Shown here piece after piece: positions 1 through 46,835 of a stretch of DNA of 64,000 bases. The stretch comes from Galerina marginata. Its lineage: Eukaryota; Basidiomycota; Agaricomycetes; Agaricales; Galerinaceae. Each line of letters opens with the position of its first letter. Within the stretch, counting starts at the first letter, position 1. The notes beneath the pieces are model-generated. The model did not search any database. It was not told the DNA's origin and was given only the letters and a program-made list of their open reading frames with translations. The DNA is taken from positions 124,001 through 188,000 of the forward strand of contig JAECYW010000025.1 in assembly GCA_023014335.1 (NCBI GenBank). The letters run 5' to 3'. The position numbers and the translations under genes are program-made.

Positions 1-2375
1 TCTGTGGTTTCTAAAATGTTATCCAAATTCCTTCGGAAGTATCTACTTTTAAATATACATGTCTTCGGTCAGTGAAAGTCTTTTTTTTTTTGAAATATAT
101 ATTCAAACCAGTGAGGTGTGGCTCACAGATTCCATGGCCTTGTCCCGAAATCACCTCGCACCTACTTACATCCAGTCTCACCGTTTTAGGGGTCTATTGA
201 CTCTTAAAATTTGGATATTTGTATTCAGTTGTCTTAAACAAAAGATTTCACGCCTTTATAATCTTTATTTAACCCCCCCAGTGGGCTCAACGTCGATGCA
301 GAAAGCGACCGGGCATCGGGAATTGCACGGTCCGAGTGTTTAAAGTCCGCTCGAACACGCATCAAGGAACTCAACGACAGGCGACTCTGCTTACAACCAC
401 CACCACTTCGTTCCTCAGGCCTCATCATTGCCCACCCCACTCCGCGAAATTCTTTTGTAAGTCTTTATCGTATATCCTACGTGCTTTGCTAACAAACCTG
501 TCTTTGAATTAGGCACTTGAGCTTGAGGTATACGTACAGTATACTCACTCGACTTGGTGCGACGTTGCGACCGCCCGCTCACGTCATGGGTTATGGACCG
601 ACGTTCCAAGCTCTTTGGATGGTAAAGGGAGGCCAAGGAAGATGAAGGGAGACCCTGGAGAGGGAGGCCCGCCAGGTACGTTGTGAGATGAGTCGAATAC
701 GACTCATTTCGCGTTCTCTTCTTCCTCCATCCATCCCTGCTCATCCACCCCGCAACAGGCTGCTACTAGCTCCAAGCACCGTCGCTGCCACCTTATTGGT
801 CCTCTCCGCTGGTAGCGACCTGCGCGCGGCACTGCCTCCCGACACCGTCTTCGCCTTGCGCCGCCATACGAAGCCTACCGCTACTACCCTCTACGATATG
901 AAGGATTCGGGGGTCGGGGGCGGCAGCAGAAACCGTGCTATGAGGATCCGCGGAGCTGCTGCTGCTGCTGCTGCGCTGGGATGTGTCAACGAGGGTGGGA
1001 TGAAATGGAGGCAACGGAACGATTTTTCGTGCCTCCTTCACCCTCATCGCTCCGTCTGGGCGCCGTTCCCCACCCTGGTGGCTGGCCCCGTCATTCGTCC
1101 ACTCACCCCACACTGTCCGTCGCAGCTCATATCTCCATACTCGCCACTCGCCACACTTACGATGACACAGGGAAGCCCTACGGCGAGGAAACAAACGCAA
1201 ACGTCGGGTTCGCGTTCGTCGACAACCTACCTGCTTTGGACACCAGCTCACTCTCCTCTTGCCCCACCCTCTCCCAGCTCGTAGCACGTTGGACGCTCGT
1301 CTTTGTTAACCGCCGCACCTCTATACACTAACACACACACCCTTCCAGACACCGAACGCGCGACCACCGAATCCGACGCGAGGCTACGATCTGACGTCGC
1401 CTACTCTCCAGGTAGCGAACGCACGACAGCCACGTTTGACGTGAGGCCACGATCTGACGACGCCTAGGTGCAGGCGTAATATGTGCGAGAGCCGAGAGGC
1501 CAAGCAACGGAAGCTACCACACACCCACCGCACAACACCATCACTGGTCGCGGTTACGACAGGGAAGGGAGGGACGAGGATTGGGTAACCCATGTGTGAA
1601 GCAGACAAGGGCTATGATGTAGACCAGCACCTGTATCGTAGTTGTATAGATGTGGAATATAATATCTTTTTATTTCCTCATTTTCGGTCACGGGTAGCTG
1701 CATTCCGAATCAGGAAGGTGGTTGAAATATCAGGCCATCCATCCACCCACTGCCTGTGGGTTTCTGGCTACGAAATTAGTATTGATAGATTTGTATTTTT
1801 AAGGGGAATGCAACTAGATAATTTATTCAAAGGATACAGCAATGGTGCGGGAGGGGAGGGGAAAATGATGGAAAAACGAGCCCATCAAATGTTCCAGAGA
1901 TAGCTACCGCATTGAGAATTATCGCAAACTAAAAATAGATCGTCATCCAAATGCTCGAGCGCTAATCCATCCAATCCCGCACGGATTGAGGCGCGCAAAA
2001 AGGTGAATAGGGCGTCAATAATATATCTAATCCTATTGCACAATTTTTCGTGGCTCGAAAGCGCCTATTTCCCGCCCAGGAACAAAAATACCGCCCTGGG
2101 GCCATTCTCCTGCTTTGTTTGTTCCGTGTTTGTACATTCCCGCCATCCTACCCTAATCCTACCCCTTCCCCGCCCTCTATCCCGGCATCCCCGGCATCTA
2201 CAACACCCTACCCGCCCCCAGAGAGAGCTCCCTAGCCTTCCACGGCATTTCCGGCACCCTACAGGATGATTTATAAGATCCTTCCTAAAGCGGAAGCTAG
2301 GCAGTTGGCAAGCTGGATATATCAGAGTTTTAGGCAACTGGCATAGGTTCATATATCAAGGTAGCATCCATAGGT
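1..2375. mobile_element. FB0, right part of a foldback-like element (left end outside window)
   Basis: The right TIR runs from about 1800 to 2375 and ends, read inward, as CACCTATGGATGC, the CACCT-type terminus of this family. Its sequence is alignable, inverted, with the left TIRs at 18938-19660 and 37418-38160, which places FB0 in the same subfamily as FB3b and FB4. The interior starts near the element centre (CGAAATCACCTCGC at about 145-159). It continues with a plus-strand module containing an intron-like interval 457-512 (GTAAGT, GCTAAC, TTAG) and a GGGAGACCC box near 650. A covarying hairpin (ATGAGTCG 688-695 / CGACTCAT 700-707) follows. From 720 to 1620 lies GC-rich, GCT/GCA-repeat sequence with no conserved reading frame. 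The 7 bases after the end (CGACAGG) are the expected duplication, but the left copy is outside the window. Confidence 0.75.
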
Positions 2376-2525
2376 GCGACAGGGTGTTGGCAGGCTTAGC
2401 AGGCGCGGTACGGCAGATCAAATCTTTTGTCGGGAGTGTAGAGTTCTCACTAGTTTGAAAGGCTGGATGAGCATTAGTTTGGGGTGTAACGTCAAAATAG
2501 CCTTTACAGGGAAGAGCACGGTACA
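2376..2525 (-). pseudogene. Downstream flank of repeat-gene copy A, isolated between FB0 and FB1
   Basis: This 150-bp island is nearly identical to 45430-45592, the 3' flank of the repeat-protein gene copy B. It continues after FB1 at 7571. The island therefore belongs to copy A (7571-8861), which was split when FB0 and FB1 inserted downstream of its coding end. The last seven bases (CGGTACA) are the left target duplication of FB1. No coding function is visible in the island itself. Confidence 0.8.
2519..2525. repeat. FB1 left target-site duplication (CGGTACA)
   Basis: CGGTACA occurs immediately left of FB1 and again at 7571-7577. The homologous unoccupied locus at about 45586-45592 has it once, with continuous flanks on both sides, so this is a real 7-bp duplication. 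Confidence 0.92.
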
Positions 2526-3250
2526 CACCTATGGTATGTGGGATCATGTATGAACCCTAGGATATTGCCTAACTAAAGTCATACGTCCACAGCGCCACTT
2601 TGCCAAAGTGGCAAACTTCCTAACACCTAATGTAGTTTAGAGGGTGCCGGGGTGCCGGGGATGCTTTGGTGGGTCTCTGTAGGGGCGGGACCCCGTAAAA
2701 TACCATCAATAATGTTCGGGCTCACTGCACCTCGTCGGGCACTGTTTTTGATGTGGAAATAGCGCCCACCGCCTTGTATTGATGTCTAATTATCATCTGG
2801 GATGTTTGTCACCCCGTCGGGGGGGCGGGACGCACCTAAAACGAATCTGCAACGGATTCCATGAGTCCGTACACGCCCGATTTGGAAAGCGAACTATAAA
2901 TACATCACCGTAGGATGAGCGCTATAAATAGAATCCGTCAATTCTCGATCCGTTTGGGCGGTATATTACCTTCAAATTTTGTTTCCCCTCCACTTTTAAT
3001 ACACAATCGTGATGTCCTTGTAATTACGAACCCAGTGATATAATTTTTATTGTTAAATTTGAGCGGGAAAGCAGAGGAATCCCTTCGGTAAATGGATGCT
3101 GCTCCGAAATTCCGCTATAAATAGATTTCATTGAATTCCCCTCCGTTTTTTGCCCTCCTTTGCCCTCAGTTTGTCTGTCCACTCACTTCTGTGTATATAT
3201 CTGTAATCTACAGTTAATTCTGATTCTAACAGTACTAATTTCATTAAGAA
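2526..3250. repeat. FB1 left terminal inverted repeat
   Basis: Alignable over its length, inverted, with 6860-7570. It carries the shared blocks CATCTGGGATG, CACCCCGTCGGGG, GGATGAGCG and the TATAAATA motif. Inner limit estimated by eye. Confidence 0.88.
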
Positions 3251-4384
3251 ACCAGCCCCACAAGCTTCATAAGGCTTATTGATCTCCTTAGGGGACACTG
3301 TTCCCTCATAAATGCTGTATTTCATTGAATATTATTCTTTACTACACAATACACTACCCTATATAAGTATATACGCATTCAAAGGGGGACGAGGACAGGT
3401 GGGGGCGGAAAGGGGTTAGTAGGGGAGACGGGGAACGGCGGCAGTGGTTGGCGGGCGAATGGGCAGCAGCGGACCAAGCCATCTCCTCAGGGTGTACTTT
3501 GCGATCGAGCTGGTCATGCCCTCCGTCTTCGTCGTCGTCGTCGTCGTAGCTCCAGGGTAGTGAGGGAGAGGGGAAGCAGGCCGAGGGTGCTAAGCGGGGT
3601 GAGGGTGCTGGTTGGCGAGCGAGCAGCAGCAGTAGACGAGAGTTCTGCTAGCATTCAGCTCGACCTGCCCACATCCTCCTCCTCCTGCTCGTCGTCGTCG
3701 CAAAACCCTGGTGACGAGCAGGTTTCGTCACTGCTTACTGGTTCGCGGTCGATGTGGCAGGCGAAGCAAGCACCAGCAGCAAAGATGCTGCTGGAGCCTC
3801 GATACCACGCCACCCAGCAAACGACAACAACAGGAATGTTGGCGATGTTCGTGCCGTCGCCGCCTTGCTCCTCAGTCATCGTTGTGGTCCATGGAGACAG
3901 GCCGGGGGCTGTGGGTGTCGGCGGTCTTCGTCCGTCAGTGGCGTCAGCCTCAGCATACGTGGGCATAGCCCAGCAGCAGCAGCACAGCGGCATTCGAGCG
4001 CTGCCGCGGCTTATGCGCTACCAAGCTGATGGCGCCGCCACAGTACTGGTGCTGGCACTGCTGGCACTGCCAGCGCCGACGTCGGTGCCTCGACCACCGC
4101 TCTCGTCCTCGGGGTAAGGTCGCCTCCCATGTCATAGCCCACGGATGACGTGGGTGACGAGCTGAGAGCTCTGGAAGAGGGGGAAAGCGGGTGCCTGTGA
4201 TGGCTAGGTTGAGCCGGTTGTGTGCTATTGCATCAGGCGGTGCGGGGCGAGTGGGCAAAGTAGGAGACGGGGAGAGAGGCGTGGGCGAAGCGACGGGCGA
4301 GCTGGTTTGACGAAGCGACGGTGGCGGCCAGATGGGCGGTAGTACCTGTTGGGCAAGTGTGGACGATTGTGGAGATGGAGAGGG

Positions 4385-4795
4385 GAGGAAGCAGTCCGAG
4401 TCGCGAGACTCGAACTGGCACGTACTATGCGGGTCTCCCTCTTCTAGGGCCTCCCCTCATACTCCTAATCCCACCCTGGCTTCCTGAACCGACCTCCAGC
4501 CCTCGAGACGCGCCGCCGGCGTCGGTTTCATGTCTGATGCCGGCCTACATCCTTTTGCAGGGGAGAGGCGCACGGCAGGCGGTGATGCTCCAGATTGGGC
4601 CAGTGGTATCCCCGGGCTCAAGGATTCACTGCTGGGCCAAACTGAGGAAGGATGGGGAATGAGGGCGAAAGGTGAGAGGAGGAGGAGTGATCAACCGATT
4701 GTTGTTGATCAACGGTTCGAGCGGGGTTTTAATTCGCGGACCGGTCGCTTTCCGCCTCGACTTCGTCGTCGAGGACGTCGTTGGAGGGTGTAAGG
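4385..4795 (-). other. FB1 left module, candidate structured RNA unit
   Basis: Read on the minus strand, this contains the GACGTCCTCGACGACGAAG start block, GATCAAC/GTTGATC repeats near 4690-4715 and a CCCGGGCTC motif near 4610. These are followed by a GGGAGACCC box (about 4428) and GTACGT. The terminal hairpin has stem CGAGTC (4397-4402) and GACTCG (4407-4412). It mirrors the right-hand module at 5440-5885, so the element is internally palindromic. No conserved protein frame is seen. Confidence 0.55.
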
Positions 4796-5439
4796 ATGAG
4801 TAAACTGATAAAGTTTAGTACTAGAATCCGTTATATATATTGGATTTATCTTAAATCTGAGCTTTAACTACAAAAGTCTTCCCCTGAACCCCGCACTGCA
4901 AGGTATAACCTTCATAACCTGGGTTCGTGGTGATTTCGGGTCATGAAGTGTTCGCAAATTCCACTGGACTGATTCAGAAAGGCTTGAGTACGAAATAAAC
5001 ACATAGAATTAGAATTTAGGTCAATACAATGAATTCTAGATACTTATGGAGAGGTAAAATGGGTGGGTGATAATGAAAGTTGTAGGTTTCCAATGTTGCG
5101 GGGTATTATCAATGAATCTTTCACTTAGTTTGTGTCGAATACACTGTAATCTTTCTGGATGGTCGCACCACCATTGGAGGTCTTAATAAAATAATTAGGA
5201 TATATTCTAGTGACTATTTAATGTAACCTACCATTCTTTTTACAGCTAGAATAAGATTATTTCAGCCCCAAAAGCACAAAAAGTTGAGTCCGAGCATCCG
5301 TAAATCACCACGCAAGTAGGTAGGCTTCAATACACATATATTGTACTCGGATTTTTTGCTTCGGAGGCACATAGTAGGTTGAGAAGTTACTATTCTATGA
5401 CATTCCGAGCCTTAAATAATTATTAAGTGTTCATTTTAA

Positions 5440-5885
5440 CACCTTCCGAGACGTTCTTCTCGATGAGAGGGATCCCGAAGGCGGTCGGGCCGGGTGATCC
5501 AACCAATCACATCGCGTTCCGAATTTCCCAAAGCGGCAGCAGTCACATCAACAACCACGAACGCCGTTGAACCATCACCACCACCACCACCACACTTTCT
5601 CTTGCCCGCCCGCCCCTCAAGACATCTAGTGAGTACTTTTTATTGCAGATGTTTCTTTCTTAACTTACTTACATCTTTTACCTAGGTTATAACGATGCGG
5701 CCGAGAGCGCCGCGGTGCCACGTCGTGAGCCCCCCCTTCAACCTGAGGGCTGTGGGCCGGCGTTTCGACGGTGGAATGGTTCGACGAGGAGACGGACGAC
5801 GGGAGGAGAAAGCAGGGGAGACCCATGAAGTGGGAGACCCACAAGGTGCGTCGTGAATCGAGTCTACGCGACCTGATTCACATCA
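5440..5885 (+). other. FB1 right module, candidate spliced structured RNA unit
   Basis: The order is: CGAGACGT block, CCAATCACATCGCG (CCAAT box near 5503), hairpin-prone ATCAACAA/CGTTGAA, a CCACCACCACC tract, and an intron-like interval 5629-5685 (GTGAGT to CTAG, 57 nt). After that come AGCCCCCC / GAGGGCT (about 5727-5750), GTGGGCCGGCG and two GGGAGACCC boxes (5813-5855). A hairpin GTGAATC / GATTCAC (about 5853-5882) ends the module. The same order recurs in FB2, FB3, FB5 and FB6. A transcribed non-coding role is inference. Confidence 0.55.
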
Positions 5886-6132
5886 CCATTGCCCCCCGTC
5901 CTTTGCTCATCCATCGACCCCCATGCCCACTGCCCTAGCCACATCGCCTCCAGCCATCAGCGCCTCGTCGCTGTCTACGCCGCTCCCGGTGGGAGCCAAC
6001 TTCGACGTCGATACCAACCACGACCCGAAAACGAGTGCAGCACCATGCTGCCCACGTATGCGACAACGAACACGGCCCCCGGCCCCAGCAATACGCAAGC
6101 TGGTATAGCTGGGATGTGGGGATGTGGAAGCG

Positions 6133-6162
6133 CAGCAGCAGCACAATGATGTGCTGCTGCTG
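6133..6162. repeat. Perfect 12-bp-stem palindrome in FB1 hairpin array
   Basis: CAGCAGCAGCAC, a 6-nt loop, then GTGCTGCTGCTG. One of many unrelated short palindromes between module and TIR. Another is at 6293-6301 / 6309-6317 (9 bp). Confidence 0.85.
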
Positions 6163-6859
6163 GTGCCCATCGCTGAACCCACGCCTTCTTTCACCGAGAA
6201 CTCGCGTCTTGGGAGGTCGACGGCGGCCTGCACCTGCAACACCGCACCCCATCCATCACAATCGAGACGGTGTGAGCGGATGGGAAGGAAGGGAGGAGCA
6301 GTATTGTGCTGCTCCTCGTTGGCTTAGCGGGTGACGCGGACGGACGAGCGAGGACCAGCAACCAGCGCCAGCACTCATTCGTGCTGGTGCTCGCGTTCGC
6401 ACCGAGGCTGTAGGGAGGAAACGAGACGAACGCAGTCGTTCCATCCCTGTTCGACGAGGTCGCCGCGCCATGCCTGCCCACCGTCGTTTCCGTCGCTCCC
6501 TCACCCTGCCACATCTCTTCGAAGCACACCGTGCTCGCCATCCATCCGCGGATGAGTTAAGGAATAGCGGCGGCAGCACCTCGTCAATGCTGCTGCTGGG
6601 GTCACAGGGGGGAGGCGTAGCAAACAGGACAGCTATGCCTTCATGCTTTCAACGCCGGCGACGACGCAGACTCCGGTTTCTTGGGCACGCATGGCTAACA
6701 TTGTCGTTAGCTGACACCAATAGTACATACTGTATAGTCGTAGTAGATATATGAAAAGAATACAATACATTACCATCCGGCTGAAGTTGTTTAAGACCAG
6801 GTCAGAAAGTCAATGGGATTCCTAGGCTTCCCCAAGTGAATTTCATTATAAATTTGGTA

Positions 6860-7570
6860 TCATTTGATTCGCAATGGCCAATAGATTACAGCTATGTACA
6901 GAAAGGTGGAGGGAAAGGCAATTTGAGAGCGGGAGAGGGCAAAAACGAGGAGGAATTCCACGAAATCTATTTATAGCGAAATATCGGAGAGCAGCCATTC
7001 ACCGAACGGATTCCTGTGTGTTCCCGCTTACTTTTGGCAATAAAAATTATATCACTGGGTTTGTATTTACAAGGACATCACGATTGTGTATTAAAAGTGG
7101 AGGGGAAACAAAATTTGAAGGTAATATACCGCCCGAACGGATCGAGAATTGACGGATTCTATTTATAACGCTCATCCTACGGTGATGTATTTATAGTTCG
7201 CTTTCCAAATCGGGCGTGTACGGACTCATGGAATCCGTTGCAGATTCGTTTTAGGTGTGTCCCGCCCCCCCGACGGGGTGACAAACATCCCAGATGATAA
7301 TTAGACATCAATACAAGGCGGTGGGCGCTTTTTCCGCATCAAAAACAGTGCCCGACGAGGTGCAGTGAGCCCGAACATTATTGATGGTATTTTACGGGGT
7401 CCCGCCCCTACAGAGACCCACCAAAGCATCCCCGGCACCCCGGCACCCTCTAAAATACATTATACATGGGTGTTAGGAAGTTTGCCACCTTGGCAAAGTG
7501 GCGCTGTGGATGTATCACTTTACTTAGCAAACTTGCCACATATCATACATAATTCTAGCTATCATGGCTG
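6860..7570. repeat. FB1 right terminal inverted repeat
   Basis: Inverted counterpart of 2526-3250, ending in the CAGCC-type terminus at 7570. Confidence 0.88.
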
Positions 7571-11774: not shown

Positions 11775-13439
11775 CAGCCATGTCAGCTATATTTCTATAT
11801 GAAACACTGCAATTTCCCAAAAGCCTGTTATACATCCAGAGTGGGTTTTTCCAATACTGCCTTTTTGCAGTCCCTACATTTTACATATCTATAGGGTGGG
11901 TAGGCATGCTGGGGATACGTATATGGGTGCTCTAGGGTGCGGGACATGGTAAATATATGTAAACAATACCCCCCATGATGTCGGGCACTGTATAATAGGT
12001 GCTGCTCATCATTTGGGCGCTTTTGGGCGCCTTTAGGCGCGGGAATAAATTATGCAGGGACCTCAAATATTGATGGATGCTCAATTTGGCTGCTGCTCAT
12101 CATTGGGGGCGGGTTTCGGGGCTGAAAAAGCGCCAGGGGGTATATATTAGTACCCACATTCCATCTGGGATGTTGGTCACCCCGTCGGGGAGGCGCAACA
12201 CGGCTAACTCGAATCTGCAAACGGATCCCATGAGTCCCGCCGGGGTCCTAGTTCCATTTTCGGACGCGTCCCGCGCCTTTTCGGTTCCTTTGGGATTAGC
12301 GATAAAAATAGATTGGGTCAGTTTTAGCGCTATATTCCTTTTATTATTTTCGTCCCGCCACTTCTAAAAGTATATTCGTAATCTCCTTGTAAATACGAAC
12401 CTAATCATATAATTTTTACTGCTAAATGTGCCCCGGAAGTGGTCAAACAAACGAATCATACATACGAGCACCATAGGATGAGTGTTATAAATAGATTTCC
12501 ACAAAATGTCGACCGTTTTTGCCCTACCTCCTCCTCGATATACCTGCCCCCTTACTGATATACATACAGCTGTATTCAGCATGAAAATGCGAGCCTATAT
12601 ATACCAATTTTGCAGGTAAACAACCTGAGCGAAGCCCAGTCTTATTTGTAGCTATAGCGAAAACATCAAGTTAAATGATTCAATGTCTACGACATTGAAT
12701 CTTCGTGGGCTACATTAGCTATTAAAACTACATATATTTAAGTAGGAAGAACAGCGGCAGCAGTAGCTACCCGCCTGTTCACCTTGCCCATCCCATCCCA
12801 ACCTTTTCCACCGTCACTTCGTGCCCTCGCAGTCACGCCGCCGCTTGCCTTTGGGTGGACTCCGATGTCCGAGAGTGCTGGAATTGTGCGTGGTCGACGA
12901 GGACGAGCATCGGGGCCCCACCGACCTGCTAACCTTCGTCGACATCTCTTACGCACGGCAGCCCAACCACGACGTGGGCTCCGGGCAAGAGGCCGTCTGC
13001 CCCAGGATAAGGGGCAAGGCTAGGGATGGGTGGGCGTTCAACAGGCGGAGTGGGCTCCCGCCTTCGCCCTCGCGTTCGCGTCCTTTTTTTACTCGGTCGG
13101 CGTCGATTCCACCTTCGACAATCGCAAGGGGGCGAATAGGGAGTGTGGTGGGCTGGGGAAGTGAAGGTCAGAGTCGATTGACGCCGCGACTGCGGTGTGA
13201 AGACGGCAGGCGGTGGTACGGGCAGTACAAGCGACTGATGGGACAAAGAGGACGAGGGTGACAAGGCAACGCCATCGTTTTCCCCTACATTGCCGCCACG
13301 CCGTCGCTGCTGCACCCTCCCGACCCCACAGCAACGGTGCCAGAGACGCAGCAGCGGTGTGACGCTGCTGCTTCTCCTAACAGCTGCTCTCACAGCCCAG
13401 CCCGTGCCTTCACTCCCTAAGAAAGACCTACGAGAAGAG

Positions 13440-13930
13440 GGAGGGGGTTGGTGCAGACGACGGGCGGAACTCCCGGGCTCGAGTATTCGACGCCCGTCGC
13501 TCTGCATCATGGACAGTGGGGTGGAGAGGTGGTGTGGCCGATGGTGGCTGAATGGAAACGAAGGAAGTGGCATGAAGGAGTGGCGGCATAAAGCGGGGGG
13601 TGTTGGTACCCTGCGTGGAGTCGTGGATGGGCATGGTGGGGTCGAAAGGCGCCGCGGATGGGTGTGGTGGGGAGCCGCGGGGTGTGGTGGGGAGTCGCGG
13701 GAGACGGTGCTGTGCTCTGGAAGCGCCGGCCCACATGCACGAGGCGAGGGGCACCAAACGCGCACTTTTGAGGCTTGAGGGAGCGAGATAGAGAGAGGAG
13801 GCAAGTGGAGGTGGTGGTGGGGAGAAGCAAAAATCAACATCAACGTTGTTGATCGAGGCGTGCAATTGGCTGAGGCACACGGGCCGCGTCGACTCCGATC
13901 CACCTTCAACATCTCGAATATCGTCGTTCC
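13440..13930 (-). other. FB2 left module (diverged type)
   Basis: On the minus strand this reads a GTTGAT block (13840s), a CCACCACCACC tract, GTGCCCCTCGC, then GTGGGCCGGCG (about 13730). The CCCGGGCTCGAG motif with a flanking GTATTCGACG hairpin lies near 13470-13500. The order is the same as in the left module of FB6. No protein frame is conserved. Confidence 0.45.
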
Positions 13931-14394
13931 CATTCCAATGTATGTTCTAGACTCCGGAAATCGGCGGTATATACTGTATATGTAGTTTAGAAATAATATC
14001 TAGCCTCAAATAAATAAAAAATAAGGAGTACCATTTATTAAATTGAGTGTATATCGATTGTTTGAAAACGACGAGGAGTTTCTTTGATCATTCATGCCTT
14101 AAAGCTAAGAAGTAGAGGTTTGGAAAGTTCACGATGTATTTCAGCCCTGTAAAGTATCTAAAAGTTTTTAAATAAGTATATACTCTCTCTTCAAGGTCTT
14201 TTATTGAAGTGAATGCTGCCTAAAGCACCTAAATACCATACCGTTAAAACAGTGTTTGACCGAAATCACCACGCTTGGAGGTAGATGTTCCTATCATACC
14301 GTTAAGACATTGAAATGGCCACCGGACATAGAAAAATTTGTTTTTGAGTAAGCTTAAAATTCATTCCATGATTAATTTCTATAGGTTAAGTTTG

Positions 14395-14841
14395 TGTTAC
14401 CGTCGTCCGAGACGTCTTTGACGACGACGAAGGTCGACGGATTGGTCGGCCCGTTCGAGGTAGCCAATAATATTAATCGCCGAAAAGGCCGAACGAAAGA
14501 TCAACCACCATCAACACTGGTTGATCTTGCTTTCCACCACCACCACCGACTTCCCCTCTCTCCTTCCTGGCCCATTCCGCCCCTCAAAGCCTCAAGAACA
14601 TGTTTGGTACGTGATTTTATGTCCTTTTTTCTGCTACATTACTGATCTCTCTCTCTTAATAGGTATTTCATGCACGTACAACATCGTGCCGCGCGTCGCA
14701 AGCCCCCCCTCACGTCGAGGGCTGTGGGCCGACGTTCCAACGAACTCGGATGGGAATCGGGTGGGGCATGACGAGGGGAGACCCTAGAGGGGGAGACCCG
14801 CCCGGTACGTCGCGAGACGAGTCATATTTTGACTCGTCTTT
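14395..14841 (+). other. FB2 right module, candidate spliced structured RNA unit
   Basis: CGTCCGAGACGTC block, then GATTGGTCGGCCCG...AGCCAAT (paired opposite CCAAT boxes, 14439-14468). A GATCAACCACCATCAA / GGTTGATC hairpin (about 14499-14527) and a CCACCACCACC tract follow. The intron-like interval is 14607-14662 (GTACGT to ATAG, 56 nt). Then come AGCCCCCC/GAGGGCT (about 14699-14722), GTGGGCCGACG and two GGGAGACCC boxes. The final hairpin is AGACGAGTCA / TGACTCGTCT (14815-14839). Confidence 0.6.
14607..14662 (+). other. Intron-like interval in the FB2 right module
   Basis: GTACGT donor and TTAATAG acceptor with a pyrimidine-rich tract, 56 nt. Equivalent intervals of 56-67 nt occupy the same place in FB0 (457-512), FB1 (5629-5685), FB3 (23142-23076 minus and 23969-24031), FB5 (43091-43148) and FB6 (53605-53669). 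Confidence 0.55.
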
Positions 14842-16681
14842 GCTTTCCTTCCTACCCCGCACGCCCCCACCTCATTCGCGCCGCGATAGGCTGGTTCAGA
14901 GCCTGCTGCCGGTGTCTACGCAAATATCGACCCCGCCTGCGTCACCACCTCTCCACGCCGCCTCCGCGTTTAGCCCCACGAACCACCTGCGATCAGCAGG
15001 AGGAGCAGCAGCACGACCGCTGCTGCTCGTACGGCACGAATACTCCCTCCGGGTGCGAAAGCAGCAGCAGCAACAACAACACTACTGCTACTCCGCTAGG
15101 GTGACACGGACGGCGTAGCGAAGAGGCAACAATATTTGTTGCCTCTTCACTCTCACCTCTCGAACATCCTCGCCCCTCGCTCGTCGCCCCGTCACTCGCC
15201 CGTTACCCCTCCACCCGTCCTCGTACCCCAGGCGTTTCCCCCGTCTATACCGCCACCACCCCGAGGTCCGTTGAGGTCCGTTCGCCATTCGCTTGCCAAA
15301 GCAAACACGAAACGCGAAGAACGAACACGAATGCGACGGCGTTCGCGTTCGTTCACCATTCGTGCCCCCCTCTTCTCTCACTACCACTGCCTCACATACC
15401 GACGTCTCCCAGCCCGCAGTCCACGTCACACGTGAGTTGTGATGCATGGGAGATGACGTTGGGATAGGACGAAGTGAAGCGCAGGCTGCAGCAATGGACG
15501 CTGCAGCCTGTTCACTACTCGTCGCTATGCGACGGCAAGTGTGAGATGAGCGAGCTGGAGGATGGCGCGCCTTGGATTCGCCGCCGACTCCCGCCACCTT
15601 ACGGTCCGCACGCACAACACAAGTGAATATCCCGGAGTGGTATGAATGCGACGGTCGCGAGATGTTGGTGGGAGATGGGAGTCGCAGGACTGCTTCTCGG
15701 GTCAGTGGAGGTAAGCATTGCCCAGCTATGTAGCCTTACCACCGTGTAATCGTAGAATATTCATGAATCTCATTTGATTTTTGCATTTATCCGCACAAAT
15801 AAGGCTTTAGGGAACAGCTGGAGCTTCCAGTAGGTATTTATCCATAAAATGGGTATGAATAGGTTCGCATGTTCAAGCTGATTACAGCTGTGTCTACACA
15901 AGTGAAGGGAAAGATAAACTGAGATCGGGGTGGGCAAAAACGGCGGGTATGTTGTAGAAATCTATTTATAACACTCATCCTATGGTGCCCGTAAGTATTA
16001 TTCATTCGTTTGACCACTTCCAGGTAACATTTCGCAATAAAAATTATACCATTAGGTTTGTATGTACAAGTAGGTTACGAATATACATTGAGAAGTGGCG
16101 GGACGGAAATAACGAGAGGAATATAGCACAAAAACTACACGAATCTATTTTTATCGCTCATCCAAAAGGAGCCGAAAAGACGCGGGACGCGTCCGAAAAT
16201 GGAACTAGGACCCCGTCGGGACTCATGGAATCCGTTTGCAGATTCGAGTTAGCCGTGTCGCGCCTCCCCGACGGGGTGACCAACATCCCAGATGGAATGT
16301 GGGTACTAATATATACCCCCTGGCGCTTTTTCAGCCCCGAAACCCGCCCCCGACGACGAGCAGAAGCCAATTTTAATTGCTATCAATATTTAGAGACCCT
16401 GCATGATTTATTCCCGCGCCTAAAGGCGCCCAAAAGCGCCCAAATGATGAGCAGCACCCATTAGGCAGTGCCCGACATCATGGAGGCCATTGTTTACATA
16501 TATTTACTATGCCCCGCACCCCAGAGCACCCATATACGTACCCCAGCAGGCCTAGCTACCCTATAGATGCATAATACATAGCTGACTGCCTTTTGGCAGT
16601 ATTGGAAAAACCCACTCTGGATGTATAACGGGGTTTTGGGATATTGCAGTGTTTCATATATAATCGTAGCTGCTACAGGTG

Positions 16682-17359: not shown

Positions 17360-18639
17360 CACCTCTATGTGCTACGATCATATATGACATGTAGGTAGCC
17401 TGCCAATAGTAAGGTTACAGATACAGCCCGAACAACCCACTTGGCAAGTTGCCCAAGGGTATCCATGTGACCTTTTAAAGGCTGCCGGGGGTGCCGGGGG
17501 TAGGTGGGTGCATCATTGATAGGGCGGGGACATGTCAACACATGTCAACAATGCAGGAAACAGTGCCCAACACTGTATTTTGGGTTGTGCTCGTCGTAGG
17601 GCACGGATCCGGGCGCGTAAAAAAATAAATAGGGTCTAATAATATTATTACATCCACCTCTGCTGTTTTCGCGCCCCTCGGGAGGCGGGAATGGGTGGAT
17701 TGGCGCGGATAGGTTTGGATGAGCCTCCCAATATTGGCGGGGCAGCTGTCAGACCCGTGTGAATGCTGTAAATACTATCCCCGAGGCTGCCCGAGCATGT
17801 ATTTGGGCTCCCGCTCGCTGTACTGCACGGATTTCGGTGCGGAAAAAATTGCAATAGGGTAATATAATTATTTGCTACTCGATGCCACCTTTTGTGCACC
17901 CAACGGAGGGTGGGAAGGGATGGATTGCAGCGGATGGTTCTGGATGACGTTCCCAATTTGGTTGCACCAGCTCGGGCTTATTCGGTTCCGGTTATTTTTA
18001 GCACAAATGCTCCCTGGACGCATCAGTCGCCTCGCTCTGGTGCTCTGGTACTCATTGTAATTAGAATTTTACTTTACTGAATACATATTCTTAATCCCCT
18101 GGTTAATCCGAGCTCAACCATATAATTTTTATCTTGAAAATCAAACGGGAAGGGATGGATGTAGCGTCGTGCATCCGGATGTACCACAGGATGAGTGTTA
18201 TAAATAGATTTGCTTGACTTTCATGCCGCTTGGCTGGAATTTTACCTCCATTTTTCATGTCCCCTCAGTTTTAAGTATCTAGTCATAGTCTCCTCGTCAA
18301 TACAATTCTAATGATATAATTTTTATGGTTAAAATCGAATGGGAATAGCTACATATCTACTCACTAGTAAATAGTTTTCAGTCAAGCCATCTAAAAATAG
18401 CATTCAACGAAATTTCTCCTCCTTTTGCCGTACATTTAGCCCAATGTACTTTTCCCCTCACTTGAGTATACACATCTGTATTCTACACACAATTCTGCAC
18501 CTAATGATACCAAATTTATAGTACAAGGGCAGGGAATGCCCTGGTAGGCTGTTACTTACTCACAATTTTATAAAAAGCAATACATTATATTAAAGACTAT
18601 CTACTACGTTACACTTTCGGCTGATGTAAATAGATCGGT

Positions 18640-18667
18640 GGGACGAGCAGCGTTGGCTGCTCGTCCC
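18640..18667. repeat. Perfect palindrome, 12-bp stem (FB3)
   Basis: GGGACGAGCAGC, loop GTTG, GCTGCTCGTCCC. Confidence 0.88.
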
Positions 18668-18937
18668 TCCCTGCGTCTCGGCGCGCACAACTCCGAGCAG
18701 TACGAGGCAGTAGCAGCTACTGCCTGCACCCTGTCGTCCACATATCCGGAGGGCAGCGAACATGCTGCCCTCGTCGCTTCGTCGTCTTCTTCTCGTGAGC
18801 AGAGGGTGGCGGGTTGTGTCGCAGGTGACAGAGAAAGGGGTGGTGCAGTGGCAGGTCGCAGCGGGGTCGTCTGGGTGGCAGGCTACCAGCCGCCTTCGCC
18901 AGCTCGTCAACTGCGCGCCACCTGCGCAACAAGGTGG

Positions 18938-21900
18938 CAGCCATGTGTGCTATAATTCTATATCAACTAAGGGTAGTTGCCCAAGAAGCTGATATGTCCA
19001 CAGGGCAGTTTGCCCAACTGCTATTTTAGGAAGGACCTCAGAAATTTAGCTGTAGGGTGCCGGAAATGCCGGGGTTGGTTGGGGATGCCTTTGGGTTGGC
19101 GGGTGGGTGCTCTGGGTGCCGAAAATTCCAGGGAAGAGGGCGGGATATTGGTAGAAAAGCCTGCAGGGGGCGGGAATGTACAAACAATGTACAAACAAAT
19201 CACCAGAATGAAGTAAAACTGGTGTTTTTGCTCCTGGGTGCGAAATAGGCGCTTTCGAGGCGGGGAAAGTTATGCAATGGGTCGGAATATATTCTTGGTA
19301 CCCTATCCACCCTTTAGCGCGCATCAAACGAAACGGGAATGGGTGGATTAGAGAAAGAGCATCTGGATGACCTCTATTTTTAGTTCAACAATATTCCGAA
19401 TGCGGATTTTAGCTCCGGGGCGGTTTGATGGGCTCTTTTTTGCCCCCTCCTCGTGCTCCCTTTGCCGTCCCCCTTGATTTACATAGCTAGTATTCTTCTC
19501 CTCAAAAATGCGAATGCAGTGGTACCAATTTTGTACACTAAAACACATTGGGAGCTGGTGGGCAGCTGGGTAGGAAGATCAGCACCTCTAGAAATCTTTG
19601 AATCCTGATTCGGTTTCACTATCCGTAATTCCAAATTTGATAGAAAAACAATATTATATTTGAGTCTACAGTACAGGTTGACCTATGGAAAAGACGGAAG
19701 GACGATGAACCGACATCAACGTGAGATGACGAGGTCGCAACATCTCACTGCCCTCGTGGCTCAGATGAATTCGTCCATCCCATCCATCACCTAACAATCC
19801 AATGGTGAGTAATGCACCATAGTCGAATGTCTTGGCCGTCCGAGTCGCAGCAGTAGTGGAAAAATGTGTGGCGCCGCTGGAGAGCACCGGAGTGGGGGGC
19901 CGTGGAAAGCGCCAAAGGGAGAGTCAACCAACGTGAACGCCGTCGAGTCAAGACGGCGTTCGTGTTGGGTGACATGGATTCGCGGGTGGTAGTTGGGACA
20001 AGGACGAAGGCACCGCGGTGAAAGACAGGCGGCGAGTCGGCAACGAACGTGTCAGACCGTGATGGGTCTTGGCTCGCCCGTTTCGCACATTGGTGAGGAT
20101 GAGAAGCAGGGTGGATGGACGAAGGCGGTTACGGGCAGTCGAGGATCGACGACGGCGGACTGGGAGGTTCCAGGTGGAGAAACTCGCGTTTGTGAGGCTG
20201 GGGCGAGACCGTGAGCGGTGACTGACGGCAGCATGGACGTGTGTTGGTGATCGCAATGGCGGGTGAACCTGGGTAGAATGGGTGAGTACTGGGAGATGTT
20301 GTATTTCGAATCACCTTCGGCCATACCCCGCCGTGACAACCCAGCCCACCCTTCCCAACGGCGTTTGTATCCTCATACCCTCTGCCTCTGCCTCACCTCC
20401 ACTCACACCACCGAAATCGACGTACCATGCGTCGTGGCTCACGGTTGAGGTGACAGGAACCACGAGCTGGGAAACGTCAGTACCGGGGTAGAGAAGTGCG
20501 GAAGTCGACGAAATGCCAACAACACGAACGTCATCACGAGCATTCGTAATGACGCTCTCGTGTGCGCCTCCTTGTTCCGCGTCGCGTCAGTCGTGAGCGC
20601 TTGATGGTTGTGGTGCTGAAGTAGGAGGGGAGGTGATGCGGCTTGGGGTTGGAGACAACGACGGTCCCGAACACGGCCGAACCTGGGTTGCGCAGTGGCT
20701 TCAGTGGATGGGCGGCGGAAGAGAAAGACGATGAAAACAAATCGAGTTGCAAGACTCGATTCGTCACGTACCAACCGGAGCTTCTGCTACCATGCCCTCC
20801 CCTCGTGCAACCCAACCGCCAGCTCCAGCTCGAACTCACTGTGAGTCGGCCCACATCCGCCAGCGAAGGGAGGGGCACCCGATATCGAGGGCGGCGAGCA
20901 GTATTTAGAACCTACATAGAGCCCAGTTCGTTAGAAACTTGGTAATTGCATCATTAAACCCTAACGTACCTGATTTCTTGAGGTCCTTTGGGTCGGGACG
21001 GGCGAAAGAGTGGCAGGCGATGACGGTGGTCGTGGTTGAGGGCAAAGATCAACGATGTCGAACCGTCGTTGATGTTGTCCGGTTGTTTCCGAGACAAACC
21101 CGATTGGCTGGTAAGCTCAGACCGGGCAGCCTCCGATCCGTTCTCGACATTTGGAACGTCTCCGGGGCAGTCCTCGAAGCATCCGAGGTCCTGAATACCG
21201 TCGGGATACATTTTAACTACATTATAGTACTCTATAGCAAAGTCATAAGTTAATTGAGTAGATTTATGAATGTAAATCTTCAAAATACGATCCCATCTCA
21301 CCAAGCCTCATATTCCCAACCACTACTTCACGGGAAACACATCCATTGTAGGACCAGGTAAAGAATAATAAAGAGAGAGAATAGGTTAGAATAGTTCTAA
21401 GTTCAATACCTACAAGTTTCCACAGAGGATTGGACCCGCACCTTGTAGATTCACCTTGGACATACCTCAATAAGGCTATTCAGAGATGAAACTCGAAGCA
21501 TGTTACACCTTTCGTTTCCAAGCCTTTTGAACCTCTTCCTTTCCACATTCCATTAAAATACAAAACTAAGGAGGTTTAATGTATAATATATCAATATGTA
21601 TAGTCCTATGTACTTGAATAGAAGTTTAAAGATTTACTTGGTCTCAAAAGCCTCTATTACACGAAATCTGAGCCTCAAAAACAGTGCTTGATATATCTTC
21701 CGAGGTATCTACTTTGAAAAAGGAAGGTTAAAAGAGTTCGAAAACCATTTTAATTTCAAATTATATGCTCAAATTCGTGTTGTATGGCCCAAGAAGTGGG
21801 AGATAACGACACGGAAGTCACCTCTCAGAGTCCAATGTAGATATCTTGTTGTTCTGGACGTCGGACTTCGGTAAAAAATTACTATTATTGTTTTACAGGA

Positions 21901-22410
21901 CTTACTAAACTAATTCAAAGCCTAAAATTCTCTATCTATCATCTCAATGGATGTCCGCGTCGATCCAGATGGCGAGCGCACTGGTACTCGCGCTCCCATG
22001 GGTTTGAAACTCCGCTTACATGCGCAATCAACGAACTCCCAACATGAGATCCTGCTTGACAACCACCACCACCGCCTCCTCCAACCCTCTCCCTTGCCCT
22101 CTCTGCCTCAGGAGGTGTTCTGTAAGTGTTCTATAAGTTTTTTCCATATGTTTTATCCAGTACACTGACTTATCCGTTGTCTACATAGACTTTACGACCT
22201 AACACGAACCGATCCGCGCTCCCTGTCGGCACCTTACCTTGTCGAGGTATGCGAGCCGGCTCTCGACGTATTTGGATAGGACACGGGCTATGATGTGAAG
22301 GGTTTGGTGGGTCGTCACGGCTGGGTATGGCCGAAGGTGAGTTGAGATACAAGATCTCCCAGTACTCACCCTTTCTACCCAGTTTCCGTCGCCATTCCGC
22401 TGTCTTGCTG
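18938..22410. mobile_element. FB3b, FB0/FB4-subfamily element nested in FB3, right end missing
   Basis: It begins with a CAGCC-type terminus (CAGCCATGTGTGCTATAATT) at 18938, preceded by AAGGTGG. The left TIR (to about 19660) matches 37418-38160 directly and 1900-2375 inverted. Two divergent modules follow (20735-21170 minus; 21945-22400 plus). Blocks of them are inverted copies of each other: 20255-20350 against 22303-22400 share GTATGGCCGAAGGTGA and CTCCCAGTACTCACCC. After about 22410 the sequence returns to FB3-type palindromes and no right TIR is found. The right arm was therefore lost, and no duplication can be checked. Confidence 0.65.
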
Positions 22411-22653
22411 TCTTGTATCCTATTACAGCAGGAGCGGCAGCCTATGCCGCCGCCCCTCCACCCCGTTCTGCACCCAATCGAGGCAGCAGCAGCAGCAGCA
22501 GAGCGTGCTCCTGATACCACCCCCTCGTTGTGTCGCATGGTCTGCTGCTGCTGCTGCCACGGAGTCGTCGTCGTCTCACGTTGGTTGGTCAATCTTGGTT
22601 GACCGGCTGCGACAGGCGGGGCGGTTGTGAGGTGGCGGCGGCTTTGTGAGGTG

Positions 22654-22696
22654 GCAGAGAGTGGTGGGTGGTGGGTGGTGGGTGGTGGGTGGTGGG
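22654..22696 (+). repeat. GGTGGGT tandem tract
   Basis: About five to six direct copies of a GTGGGTG unit in FB3, a G-rich strand with several GGG runs. Confidence 0.7.
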
Positions 22697-22904
22697 ACCG
22701 CTATTGAAAGCGATGGCAGTTGAAGAAGCAGCAGCGCGAGCGCTGCTGCTTCTCGGTTGGGGCGCTGTGTGAGAAGCGGGGGTGGTTTTTGCAGGTGTTG
22801 GTGGTCGACGGCGATGACAGGTGGTGGTGGTTACGGCGACGAGCTGTACTGGCCTGTTCACGGGCAAGTGAGCGGGGTGGGGGGTGAAGAAAGCAGTTGA
22901 CAAG

Positions 22905-23365
22905 CAAAACGAGTCGAAATATCGACTTGTTTCGCGACGTACCAGGCGGGTCCCCCTCTCCAGGGCCTCCCCTTGTTCGTTCGCCCCGTATTCCTAGCCG
23001 ATGAAGTCGGCGTCGGCCCACAAGCCCTCGAAATGAGGGGGGGCTCGCGACGCGGTGGCGCGAAAGCCTCGTGCATCTAATATATCAAACAAGTTCGTAA
23101 ATTAGTAGAAATAAACATTATATTGATGTAATAAACACTTACATAACTTATTTTGAAGTCTTGAGGGGCGGGATGGGCAAGGAGAGAGAGAGGAGTGGGG
23201 GTAGTGGTGGTGGAAAGCAGAGATCAACGATGCTGATCGCTGTTGATCTGAAGCCCGGCGTTTTCCACGAGCGATTTGATTGGCTCGCTCCAACGGCCCG
23301 CCCAATCTCTCGACCCCATTGACGTTCGAGTGGCCTCGGGTGACGTTGAAACGAGCTGTACAACC
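22905..23365 (-). other. FB3 left module, candidate spliced structured RNA unit
   Basis: Minus strand order: GATTGGCTCG/CCAATC boxes (about 23277-23310), GATCAACAGCGATC / GTTGATCTCTG hairpin (23220-23255), and a CCACCACTACC tract. The intron-like interval is 23142-23076 (GTAAGT to TTAG, 67 nt). AGCCCCCC/GAGGGCTT (about 23021-23045), GTGGGCCGACG and GGGGACCC boxes follow. The last hairpin has arms TCGACTTGTTT and AAACGAGTCGA (22912-22937). Confidence 0.6.
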
Positions 23366-23784
23366 ATATGGTGATAGTAATTTATTTAAAATGCAATTCA
23401 AGATTTTTTTGCTCATGTCCGGTGCACAAACGTAAGTGTGGTTGCTTAAAAACTCGAGGCATAGTCTTGATCACTTCCTAGCTTTCAGACTTCACCTCAT
23501 GTTTCGTGCATTTCAACGTACAGATGGATTGGGAAGGGTATTTATCATGTCAGGCAGTTCGGAAAGGAGGTAAAAATTAATCTAGCATTTGTATCCATTC
23601 CACGAGTATAGTATCCTACGCTGTATACAGTATACTCGAATACTAAAGCCAAATATGTGTGAGGGTGGTGTCCCGAAATCACAACGAAATTTCACTACCT
23701 CAAAATGACGTACAGTATGTCAAAATTTTAATTGTAAAAGCCTGTACATATGTTCTAATAGACATAAATTGTATATACCGATGA

Positions 23785-24120
23785 CTTCAGACAATCGAGA
23801 CGACCAAGACGGATTGGAGTCGCTCCGGGCCGAGCGCGCGAGCCAATCGAATTTGTTGCCGAAACCAGCATCAACAACGATCAACGTTGTTGATGCTGCT
23901 TTCCAACCACCACCACCACTCCCCCTCTGCCCTCCCACCCTCACCCCGCCCCTCAAACTTTTAAAAAGGTATGTTTTGAGTATATTAAACTTGTTTTATC
24001 CATTTTACTAACATTTGTTTTATCTATTTAGACCTGACACGAGCCCAGCAAGCGCGAAAACCGCCGCGTGCCCCTCACTCCCTTGAACATGTGGGCCGAC
24101 GTATTGGGGGTGGAGGGTGG
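23785..24120 (+). other. FB3 right module
   Basis: AGCCAATCG (CCAAT box about 23850), GCATCAACAACG / CGTTGTTGATGC hairpin (about 23870-23901) and a CCACCACCACC tract. The intron-like interval is 23969-24031 (GTATGT, ACTAAC, TTTAG, 63 nt). GTGGGCCGACG follows at about 24088. The CCCGGG motif near 24375 is shared with the diverged module type. Confidence 0.5.
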
Positions 24121-26273
24121 ATAGGGAACCGAGGCCAGAGGGCCGCGGGTGAAGTGCCGACGGCCCAGAGACGGGGGGAGGCCTTGGGGAGGGAAACCGC
24201 GCACCCACCAACCAACTGCCAGCACCACCAACACCAACCACACGTCTGCACCCAACACCACGCGCCTCCCACACCGGGTGCTGCCCACTCTCCGACACAC
24301 ACTGGCCCCAACGCCAGTGCCGATTCCGCTCGGTTCCGCCTCCGGTGCTGATCGGCAGGCGTGAAAGCTCGAGCCCGGGCATTCCACCCGCCGCCTGCAT
24401 CGCCTTTTCGAAGGACCTCGACGGACCTCAAGAGGAGAGGGAACGCGGAGGAGGAAGATGTGTAGGGGGCGGAGGTGGTGGGGATGCGAAACGGGTGGCA
24501 GCGAGGACAGAGACGGAGACGACGGATGACGGGGAGGATTGGGGTTGAGGGGGGGAATGGGGACGATAACGGGACGGTGGGGACAGCAGCAGCAGCCATT
24601 CGCCAGAATGGCTGCTGGTGCAATTTGGTCTCTGCGGCGTGCGACGAGTGGAACAGGCAGCGGCGTAGCCAGCCGTTGCTCTGTCCCTCCTCGTTTTTGA
24701 GTGCTTGCACTCGCACCACGCACCGGGAGGGAGGCGACGAGGCGACGAACATCATTGTTTATCGCCTGCTGCCCTTTCCCTCCCACCTTCGTCGTTCCCC
24801 ATTGTCGTTGAAGGCGTAGAACGCTGTCCGCTTAGGACAGCATTCTCGTCTTTTCGGCCCACCCTCGTTCTGCGAACCGACACCAGCAGTGCACAGCTGC
24901 TGGTGCTCGATTCAGCAGTGTTATCCCAACTGACAACCTCTCGCCGCGTGTTTTTTTTTCTTACTTTTATGTAGTTATACTTATGTATGTATTATGAGCA
25001 ATAAAATACATGATGATTTTGGGCCTACAAGGAAATGAGGAGGAGAAGTGCAACTACCAAGAAAGTGATTAGGTATCCGTGTCTTAACATGGCCCTTTCT
25101 CTATAAAATTGGTATCATTGGAAGCAGAATTAGGTGTAGATTACAACTGTATATATGAAAATAAGGGGACAGCTAAGTGCAGCTCAATATACGGCAAAAG
25201 GAGAAGAGATTTCGTTCAGTGCTATTTTTAGATGGCTTGACTGAAAACTATTTACTAGTGAGTAGATATGTAGCCATTCCCATTCGATTTTAGCCATAAA
25301 AATTATATCATTAGAATTGTATTGACGAGGAGACTATGACTAGATACTTAAAACTGAGGGGACATGAAAAATGGAGGTAAAATTCCAGCCAAGCGGCATG
25401 AAAGTCAAGCAAATCTATTTATAACACTCATCCTGTGGTACATCCGGATGCACGACGCTACATCCATCCCTTCCCGTTTGATTTTCAAGATAAAAATTAT
25501 ATGGTTGAGCTCGGATTAACCAGGGGATTAAGAATATGTATTCAGTAAAGTAAAATTCTAATTACAATGAGTACCAGAGCACCAGAGCGAGGCGACTGAT
25601 GCGTCCAGGGAGCATTTGTGCTAAAAATAACCGGAACCGAATAAGCCCGAGCTGGTGCAACCAAATTGGGAACGTCATCCAGAACCATCCGCTGCAATCC
25701 ATCCCTTCCCGCCCTCCGTTGGGTGCACAAAAGGTGGCATCGAGTAGCAAATAATTATATTACCCTATTGCAATTTTTTCCGCACCGAAATCCGTGCAGT
25801 ACAGCGAGCGGGAGCCCGAATACATGCTCGGGCAGCCTCGGGGATAGTATTTACAGCATTCACACGGGTCTGACAGCTGCCCCGCCAATATTGGGAGGCT
25901 CATCCAAACCTATCCGCGCCAATCCACCCATTCCCGCCCCCCGAGGGGCGCGCAAACAGCAGAGGCGGGTGTAATAATATTATTAAACCCTATTTATTTT
26001 TTTTCCGCGCCCGGATCCACGCCCTACAATGAGCGCAACATAAAATACAGTGTCGGGCACCCCAGGATGCTGTTTCCTACATTGTTGACATGTGTTGACA
26101 TGTCCCCACCCTATCAATGATGCACCCACCTACCCCCGGCACCCCCGGCAGCCTTTAAAGGATCACATGCATACCCTTGGGCAACTTGCCAAGTGGGTTG
26201 TTCAGGCCGTATCTGTAACCTCACTATTGGCAGGCTACCTACATGTCATATATGTCTCTAGCCTACAAGGCTG

Positions 26274-40291: not shown

Positions 40292-41709
40292 AACAGCACA
40301 TATTATGCTCATATATGCCTGCCAGGGGTGCCGGGGAAGGGTGTTTGATGGCTGTTGGGGGCGGGACAGTGTAAACATGTGTCAACAATGCCTAAATGAT
40401 GCCCGGAAACTGTATTTCGGGTGCTGCTCGCTGTTGGGGGCGCATTTGGGCGCGGAAAAAAGATATTCAGGGTCCAATAATATTATTATATGTGCCCCCA
40501 CCCTTTGCGCGCCTCTCGGGGGGCGGGAATAGATGGATTGGCGCGGATGCTTATGGATGACGCGGAAATAATGGGCGGGGGCTGCTGTCAAACAGCTGTC
40601 AACACTGCCCGAAATGCTATTCCGGGCTGCCTGATGCTGTATTTTGGGTCGCGCTCGCTGTACAGCGCGGATCCCGACGCGGAAAAAATTGCAGTAGGAT
40701 ACTATTAATATTTGCTACCTAATGGTACCCTTTGCGCGCCTCACGGGGGGCGGGGATGGATGGATTGGCGCTCGACGGTTTGGATGACGTTCCGAAAATA
40801 ACTCGCGCCAGGCACGCTATTTTTAGAAACTTTTGATGGATCTCACACTTGACAGCTGGGCTTGGTTTCGCGTTTTGCACCTCCTTCCCGTTCGAATTTT
40901 ATTTACTTTAGTGTACAGTTGAGATCCCCTTGTAAATACAAAGCTAATGATACAATTTTTGTCTCAAAATTCGAGGAGGAAGGGGTGGATGCAGCAGCAT
41001 CCATTCGGATGACTTTCTGATCAACCTCCAAATCCGGAAACCACTCCTCCTTGCCTTATAGATAACTTTTACGTTGTAAAAAGCAGTGTATTAGACTAAA
41101 GTAATACATATACATTGTACTACTCAGTGTAAGGAGATAAATTACAACAAACCACAGACCTTGCAGTCTGCATTCCTGGTAGAAAAGGCGGGGCCACCTT
41201 CAACGGCACATCCGTTCGCGCCTCAACCAGTCCCTCGCATCCCGTTGACCTCCCTTCCTTCCGATCACCCCATCTGCTGTGGTATCATGGTCGTACCATA
41301 CCGGTTTCAGCTCCCGCGACCCGGTCATTCGCTAACGAAACAACATTCCCAACCTCGAAACCCATCCACAGCCTAGCACCGCTCGTTGTCTTCCGCAGAT
41401 CGATACTCGTGGGGCTTGGGTAACGAGCTGGGAGATGCCGGTGACACAAGGTAGTGGGCGGTTGGTGGGGGTGGTCGAAGGAAGCTGAAGGCGGCGGGAA
41501 ATAAAGAGGGGCTTAAGGGAGCAGCAGCTCGTCATTGTGAAGTGGTGACGGCGGCAATGCTTTCCTGGTGGCAGTCTGGCCGTACTAAGGCGGACGAGGC
41601 AGTGAAGGGGGGTGACTGCGGAGGCGACGAGGGAGATGGCGGGTGTGAGCCGCAGCCACAACGTGCTGGTGGATTCAAGGCAAATGGTTAAGTGGTATGG
41701 GGCGGACAA

Positions 41710-46813: not shown

Positions 46814-46835
46814 CTGTACTTTACCTCCACCCAGG

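Follow-up and report, generated by a model that had tools for sequence, protein, structure and literature searches.

Which enzyme moves large elements with long inverted repeats when the elements themselves encode no transposase? This question is raised by a 64-kb stretch of the Galerina marginata genome (69.3 Mb, 43 contigs). The stretch comprises positions 124001-188000 of contig C18 and is referred to as the window. It harbors four complete elements, FB1 to FB4, each flanked by an exact duplication of 7 bp. Our results suggest that FB1 to FB4 are very likely non-autonomous transposons of the KDZ superfamily, a diverged set similar to the Kyakuja elements, which would be mobilized by the KDZ transposase of relatives of 12-15 kb.

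The elements of the window

The initial annotation of the window had given the coordinates of the four elements together with the duplications CGGTACA, ATGGACG, AAAATCA and CAGTATT, and all of these were exact (Table 1). It had also assigned inverted repeats of 0.7-1.2 kb to the elements. Gapped self-alignment gave lengths of 648-1163 bp and identities of 86-94%, in good agreement with this (FB1, 648 bp, 91.5%; FB2, 829 bp, 86%; FB3, 1163 bp, 94%; FB4, 747 bp, 88%). The alignments started 10-44 bp inside the element and not at the first base. The presence of an empty site for FB1 in the window was confirmed as well: a diverged duplicate of the flank was identical to the joined flanks of FB1 at 97.5% of 239 bp, without gaps and with a single copy of CGGTACA. 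The position of FB1 is also the edge of one copy of a duplicated segment with 64-bp repeat units (window 7571-8292, 45576-46844 and 58755-59079; copies 97% identical).

Besides FB1 to FB4, the window holds a damaged fifth element, for which an intact left tip was not seen, and a sixth element (L053) that is represented by its right part.

A genome-wide family with a near-constant 7-bp duplication

The terminal pattern CASCY N16 TRTATGA had 245 matches in the genome compared to 45 for the reversed control. CACCT ends were found 106 times (control 15) and CAGCC ends 121 times (control 7). Pairs were formed from listed ends that face inward at a distance of at most 20 kb. They were drawn from 100 of the 106 CACCT ends and 100 of the 121 CAGCC ends, and some pairs are therefore absent. 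Among the ends listed, 53 of 55 inward pairs combined a CACCT end with a CAGCC end (mixed pairs), and the other two, on C5 and C21, were CC pairs. In two pairs, the right end is also used by another pair. This applies to the CC pair on C5 (with L039) and to a pair of 19.7 kb on C12 (with L048).

From these inward pairs, which number at least 55, a set of 44 short elements (1.1-8.9 kb) was compiled, consisting of FB1 to FB4 and 40 others. Together with the flanks, 50 of the 55 pairs fit into 10 kb, and 44 of these 50 were examined. The set excludes five mixed pairs (C31, C32, C34 and two on C39) and the CC pair on C5, since the right end of the latter is that of L039, a verified mixed element. 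As for the five larger pairs, the ends were examined for three (one on C8, two on C10); the CC pair on C21 and the 19.7-kb pair on C12 are outside the count.

An exact 7-bp duplication was present at 40 of the 44 short elements, while shifted comparisons used as a control gave an exact 7-mer in 0 of 2376 cases. One element (L043) had an exact duplication of 8 bp, and three (L032, L033 and L040) had no duplication of their own. L032 and L033 (C5:1462292-1474529) are 99.9% identical and face each other at a distance of 1.5 kb, and their duplications ACATCCT and TCTTTCC match exactly when compared crosswise, the arrangement expected after an inversion between two copies of this kind. Since the duplications were exchanged crosswise, the lack of own duplications is accounted for in L032 and L033, which leaves L040 as the one element without an explanation. 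The 40 target sequences had 50% GC and showed no clear base preference.

The length was 4.4-6.5 kb for 37 of the 44 elements. Five elements of only 1.1-1.3 kb had the same ends and the same 7-bp duplications. Small forms of this kind (L023, L039, L047 and others) consist mostly of just the repeat arms; one of them measures 1166 bp and has arms of 478 bp. Thus, the mobile family with a near-constant 7-bp duplication that was proposed in the initial annotation was recovered throughout the genome, and its ends did not shift between copies.

Longer relatives with KDZ transposase genes

The profile of the KDZ transposase (PF18758) had 135 matches in the host genome. Four large elements (12-15 kb) share their ends with the short elements, and all four are flanked by an exact 7-bp duplication. 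Three of the four carry KDZ and CxC2 domains (Table 1). The element on C8 and the two elements on C10 resulted from the pairing of ends alone, and the element on C18 was added due to a KDZ match between its ends. Since the C18 element was chosen for this match, the unselected count of KDZ-bearing elements is two of three. A longer relative with the same ends and a transposase gene is thus present in this genome.

The two elements on C10 represent two copies of a single family, inserted at different target sites. The gene of one C10 element comprises five exons that encode 626 residues without a stop; the start codon was not located. The exons match CxC2 (7.8e-41) and KDZ (1.3e-30). An inverted repeat enclosing the KDZ gene was not seen in the 7.9 kb examined of this element. 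A palindrome of about 613 bp (92.5%) lies upstream of the gene in the KDZ-bearing element (L070:1299-1914, which is C10:1387798-1388413). The KDZ stretch of the C18 element was 59-69% identical to the C10 KDZ protein, and the CACCT end of the C18 element differed from the FB1 end at 1 of 26 bases, which makes this element a candidate for the autonomous partner of FB1.

We also analyzed the distance between KDZ genes and ends. An inward strict end was found 2.6-3.2 kb past the 3' side at 5 of 93 KDZ places. With displaced ends as a control, the mean was 0.64 places, and 1 of 2000 trials reached five. The 93 places represent 94 of the 135 KDZ matches after merging; additional exon pieces and matches below the cut-off were excluded. 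The KDZ gene is directed toward the CACCT end in the C18 element and toward the CAGCC end in the other five of the strict-end count.

All 135 matches were used to test for overlap with the short and large elements. None of them fell into the 44 short elements. A tblastn search of the short elements with the KDZ protein of a long relative also gave nothing, and Pfam searches with the longest open reading frames of FB2, FB3 and FB4 yielded no match and no other type of transposase. This supported the view in the initial annotation that the copies lack a transposase, with the scope of FB2 to FB4 for types other than KDZ. L060 was the only short element overlapping a CxC2 match. As pieces of CxC2 are present on both flanks, this is consistent with a KDZ gene whose CxC2 part was interrupted by the insertion of L060.

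The closest KDZ proteins include those of Galerina, Gymnopilus, Psilocybe, Agrocybe and Pholiota, with up to 75% identity, in line with a mushroom-type fungus as the host. For the one KDZ protein that was tried, no relative of known structure was found by sequence.

A match of the inverted repeats to the open reading frame at window 61309-62352 (- strand) suggested that the inverted repeats code for KDZ sequences. The match does not prove it. The repeat DNA corresponds to residues 2-116 and the Pfam KDZ match to residues 87-241, and the alignment with the C10 KDZ protein (29% identity) is confined to the part from position 62028 downwards. The reading frame can be read as inverted-repeat DNA of the FB2 type fused to a KDZ fragment at about position 62005, the Pfam match probably being somewhat over-extended.

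Two types of ends next to long inverted repeats

The CACCT and CAGCC ends differed at positions 3 and 5 in 20 of 20 distinct end pairs, which only restates the mixed pairing, since both motifs were search patterns. Independently of the search pattern, the outer 20 bp of the two ends within an element were on average 58.6% alike (44 elements). Where the aligned repeat exceeded 400 bp (40 elements), the adjoining inverted repeats were 82-97% identical. Long subterminal inverted repeats were present in 43 of the 44 short elements. All 48 elements (44 short and 4 large) have CA..TG termini, with CA being part of the search pattern, and the 7-bp duplications place the borders of the elements exactly at these termini.

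The interior of the elements was less constant in its orientation. Between unchanged ends, L041 (C6:935679-940928) contained 63% of the FB2 interior in reversed and 22% in forward direction. The direction of the KDZ gene in the C18 element, opposite to that in the other five, is a further case. Recombination between the inverted repeats would flip the interior in this way, and the exchange seen for L032 and L033 would be the same process acting between two elements.

The classical Foldback (FB) elements have long inverted repeats built of short tandem units and duplications of about 9 bp, and most copies lack a transposase. The elements described here are similar to them in their long inverted repeats and in the lack of a transposase from most copies. 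They differ in the 7-bp duplication, and no array inside the inverted repeats of FB1 to FB4 appeared in the list of tandem repeats. The label "foldback", under which the initial annotation had placed the family, is therefore a misnomer.

An internal block of about 440 bp

A block of about 440 bp was common to 25 aligned elements. Of these, 24 fall into three groups with 63-71% identity between the groups. At the cut-off applied, the inverted repeats of FB3 did not match those of FB2 or FB4, and FB2 and FB4 matched each other over about half. With the exception of L041, the block is oriented from the CAGCC to the CACCT end in the 25 elements. Shorter matches in opposite or both directions occurred in FB1, L032, L033, L037, L038, L040 and L055. 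The block also recurs at many further places in the genome (based on the best 40 of 130 candidates scored); the 7.9 kb examined of one C10 element did not show it.

As a common feature, the block carries an intron-like signal: a GT donor was present in 24 of 25 elements (GTAAGT in 15), and most elements have an ACTTA-/ACTGA-like motif and an AG. There was no period-3 signal in the block (p = 0.92), stops occurred in nearly all frames, and the gaps between the groups were mostly of 1-2 bases. Searches of the window against Rfam and for tRNAs gave no match. Our best guess is that the block may serve the element as a leader or as a spliced non-coding RNA.

Neighboring genes and coordinates

Two adjoining open reading frames at window 47642-50101 (- strand) contain CxC5 (1.2e-27) and CxC6 (2.8e-10) domains, cysteine clusters that take their name from KDZ transposases. 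FB4 begins 600 bp away; we draw no tie between these reading frames and FB4. A reading frame at window 29946-31802 (- strand) has DEAD (1.7e-13) and Helicase_C (1.1e-11) domains, and a weak match to OrsD (4.3e-4, below the cut-off) lies 3 kb from it at window 34694-35446 (- strand).

Table 1. Coordinates of the elements and their parts; positions given without a contig are those of the window.
Feature	Position	Strand	Characteristics
FB1	2526..7570	+	5045 bp; left end CACCT, right end CAGCC
FB1 duplication CGGTACA	2519-2525 and 7571-7577		7 bp, exact
FB1 left inverted repeat, aligned part	2569..3210	+	partner 6882-7527
FB1 right inverted repeat, aligned part	6882..7527	-	
FB2	11775..16681	-	4907 bp; left end CAGCC, right end CACCT; duplication ATGGACG
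FB3	17360..26273	+	8914 bp; left end CACCT, right end CAGCC; duplication AAAATCA
FB4	50695..55717	-	5023 bp; left end CAGCC, right end CACCT; duplication CAGTATT
Sixth element (L053), right part	1..2376	-	CACCT end 2349-2376; whole element C18:121508-126376; exact 7-bp duplication
Damaged fifth element	40292..45109	+	CAGCC end 45082-45109; inverted repeats 40292-40713 / 44591-45013
FB1 empty site	45435..45673	+	diverged duplicate of flank; single CGGTACA at 45576-45582
Block in FB2	14401..14839	+	intron-like signal
Block in FB3	22902..23315	-	
Block in FB4	53399..53837	+	
Large element	C18:28182-43636		same ends; exact 7-bp duplication; KDZ + CxC2
Large element	C10:1382459-1394582		same ends; exact 7-bp duplication; KDZ + CxC2
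Large element	C10:1409397-1422560		same ends; exact 7-bp duplication; KDZ + CxC2
Large element	C8:780753-795916		same ends; exact 7-bp duplication

Discussion

The initial annotation had left the mobilizing enzyme of the family open and had excluded KDZ because of an 8-bp rule for target-site duplications (TSDs). While its mobile family with constant ends was borne out, these two statements have to be revised. According to Kojima 2025 (PMC12730594), TSDs of 8 bp are found for Zisupton and Dileera, and Kyakuja, which also belongs to KDZ, has TSDs of 7 bp; two Kyakuja families of Laccaria bicolor show 7-bp TSDs and 5'-CA..TG-3' termini and lack terminal inverted repeats (TIRs). We assign FB1 to FB4 to non-autonomous KDZ transposons because KDZ genes are present in long elements with the same ends and because published Kyakuja elements share the 7-bp duplication and the CA..TG termini. 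The likely mobilizing enzyme is a CxC2-KDZ transposase encoded by these longer relatives. The family is very probably not a new superfamily but a known kind of KDZ element with two additional features.

Kyakuja-1_LB and Kyakuja-2_LB (PMC12730594) resemble the present family in the 7-bp TSD, the CA..TG termini, the KDZ gene in longer copies and the mushroom-type host. The reported Kyakuja elements encode a TET/JBP dioxygenase, whereas most of the present copies have no transposase. In the host genome, the three strongest TET/JBP dioxygenase matches are located 4-5 kb from KDZ matches (C3:1336006-1340571, C10:915502-920041 and C39:263804-269172), a proximity as in the published Kyakuja elements that bear TET. 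The TET-associated KDZ protein of the host shared only 34-35% identity with the C10 KDZ protein. The elements KDZ1-KDZ3 of Cryptococcus neoformans (PMC12810828) are also similar in having a KDZ transposase, a length of about 9-11 kb and TIRs. They differ from the present elements by CxC1 instead of CxC2, by TIRs of 139-241 bp and by TSDs of 4-8 bp. For the mushroom Marasmius oreades, KDZ and Plavaka elements are reported (PMC8290104), with TIR motifs and non-autonomous forms for KDZ. These TIR motifs stand in the supplement and the comparison was made without them; an overlap with the end rule found here is possible (PMC8290104). The strict CACCT/CAGCC pairing and the shared internal block appear to go beyond the published record, as neither was found in the literature searched, with supplements outside that search.

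Several points weigh against the assignment to a Kyakuja-like KDZ family. The large element on C8 had no KDZ or CxC2 match. The long elements were covered in part: 7.9 kb were examined in one C10 element and 0.8 kb in the C18 element, and of the others the ends. On C1, C21 and C23, the ends near KDZ places are arranged differently or lie at other distances or on the other side, which does not fit a single simple layout. Kyakuja was reported without TIRs (PMC12730594), whereas the present elements have subterminal inverted repeats of 0.5-1.2 kb. The label Kyakuja is based on the TSD length and the terminal dinucleotides rather than on placement in a clade, and movement of the elements is seen only through the traces it would have left in the sequence.

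Alternatively, the elements may be KDZ elements of the Zisupton or Dileera branch instead of Kyakuja. TSD length alone is a weak clade marker, because the TSDs of the Cryptococcus KDZ elements span 4-8 bp, next to TIRs of 139-241 bp (PMC12810828), and one element of the present set, L043, has a duplication of 8 bp. We consider this assignment unlikely, since 8 bp is the length given for Zisupton and Dileera and 7 bp together with CA..TG the one given for Kyakuja (PMC12730594), while in our set 7 bp was near-constant and 8 bp occurred in 1 of 44 elements. It was also considered that the short elements are autonomous by means of an unrecognized intron-rich gene, with the KDZ genes of the long relatives being passengers. 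The length of 4.4-6.5 kb in 37 of 44 elements and the block with an intron-like signal in 25 would be in agreement with this. However, the block contains stops in almost every frame, lacks a period-3 signal and has mostly 1-2-base gaps between the groups, and the five elements of 1.1-1.3 kb kept the ends and the duplications, which makes autonomy of the short elements very unlikely.

The presence of KDZ genes in elements with the same ends also bears on transposases of other superfamilies. Mobilization by hAT7, a type of hAT transposase with 7-bp duplications, would explain the duplication length, as hAT7 elements of Puccinia have 7-bp TSDs (PMC12730594), but with KDZ genes inside the same-ended elements we regard it as highly improbable. 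An origin as MULE/foldback-type or Dada elements whose duplication is atypical would be in line with the long inverted repeats; Dada TSDs measure 6-7 bp (PMC3706591), and a Mutator/Foldback family of nematodes is the subject of a paper that mentions a "7 bp TSD" (PMC3169594). Such an origin is hardly conceivable for a family whose longer relatives hold KDZ genes. Moreover, Dada targets specific RNA genes, whereas the 40 targets analyzed here showed no clear preference and the window had no tRNA or Rfam match.

For the KDZ-based mobilization that we favor, we infer that the transposase acts in trans on the short copies by cut-and-paste and that the two types of ends have distinct roles. The KDZ transposase from the 12-15-kb relatives would bind one CACCT and one CAGCC end, excise the element and integrate it at a target cut with a 7-bp stagger. 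Repair of the gaps would then generate the exact 7-bp duplication. More tentatively, we envisage a KDZ system with mobile units of 1.1-15 kb that needs two different ends, in which the tips of about 20 bp escape the homogenization of the repeats and support an asymmetric complex, and in which many of the 5-kb passengers have kept a non-coding block of about 440 bp with a conserved intron of the spliceosomal type that could function as a spliced RNA or leader.

The results name a likely enzyme for a class of orphan repeats that is abundant in the genome of a mushroom-type fungus. The two types of ends within long inverted repeats provide a testable rule for end recognition by KDZ transposases, and the conserved intron-bearing, apparently non-coding block offers many natural copies for study.

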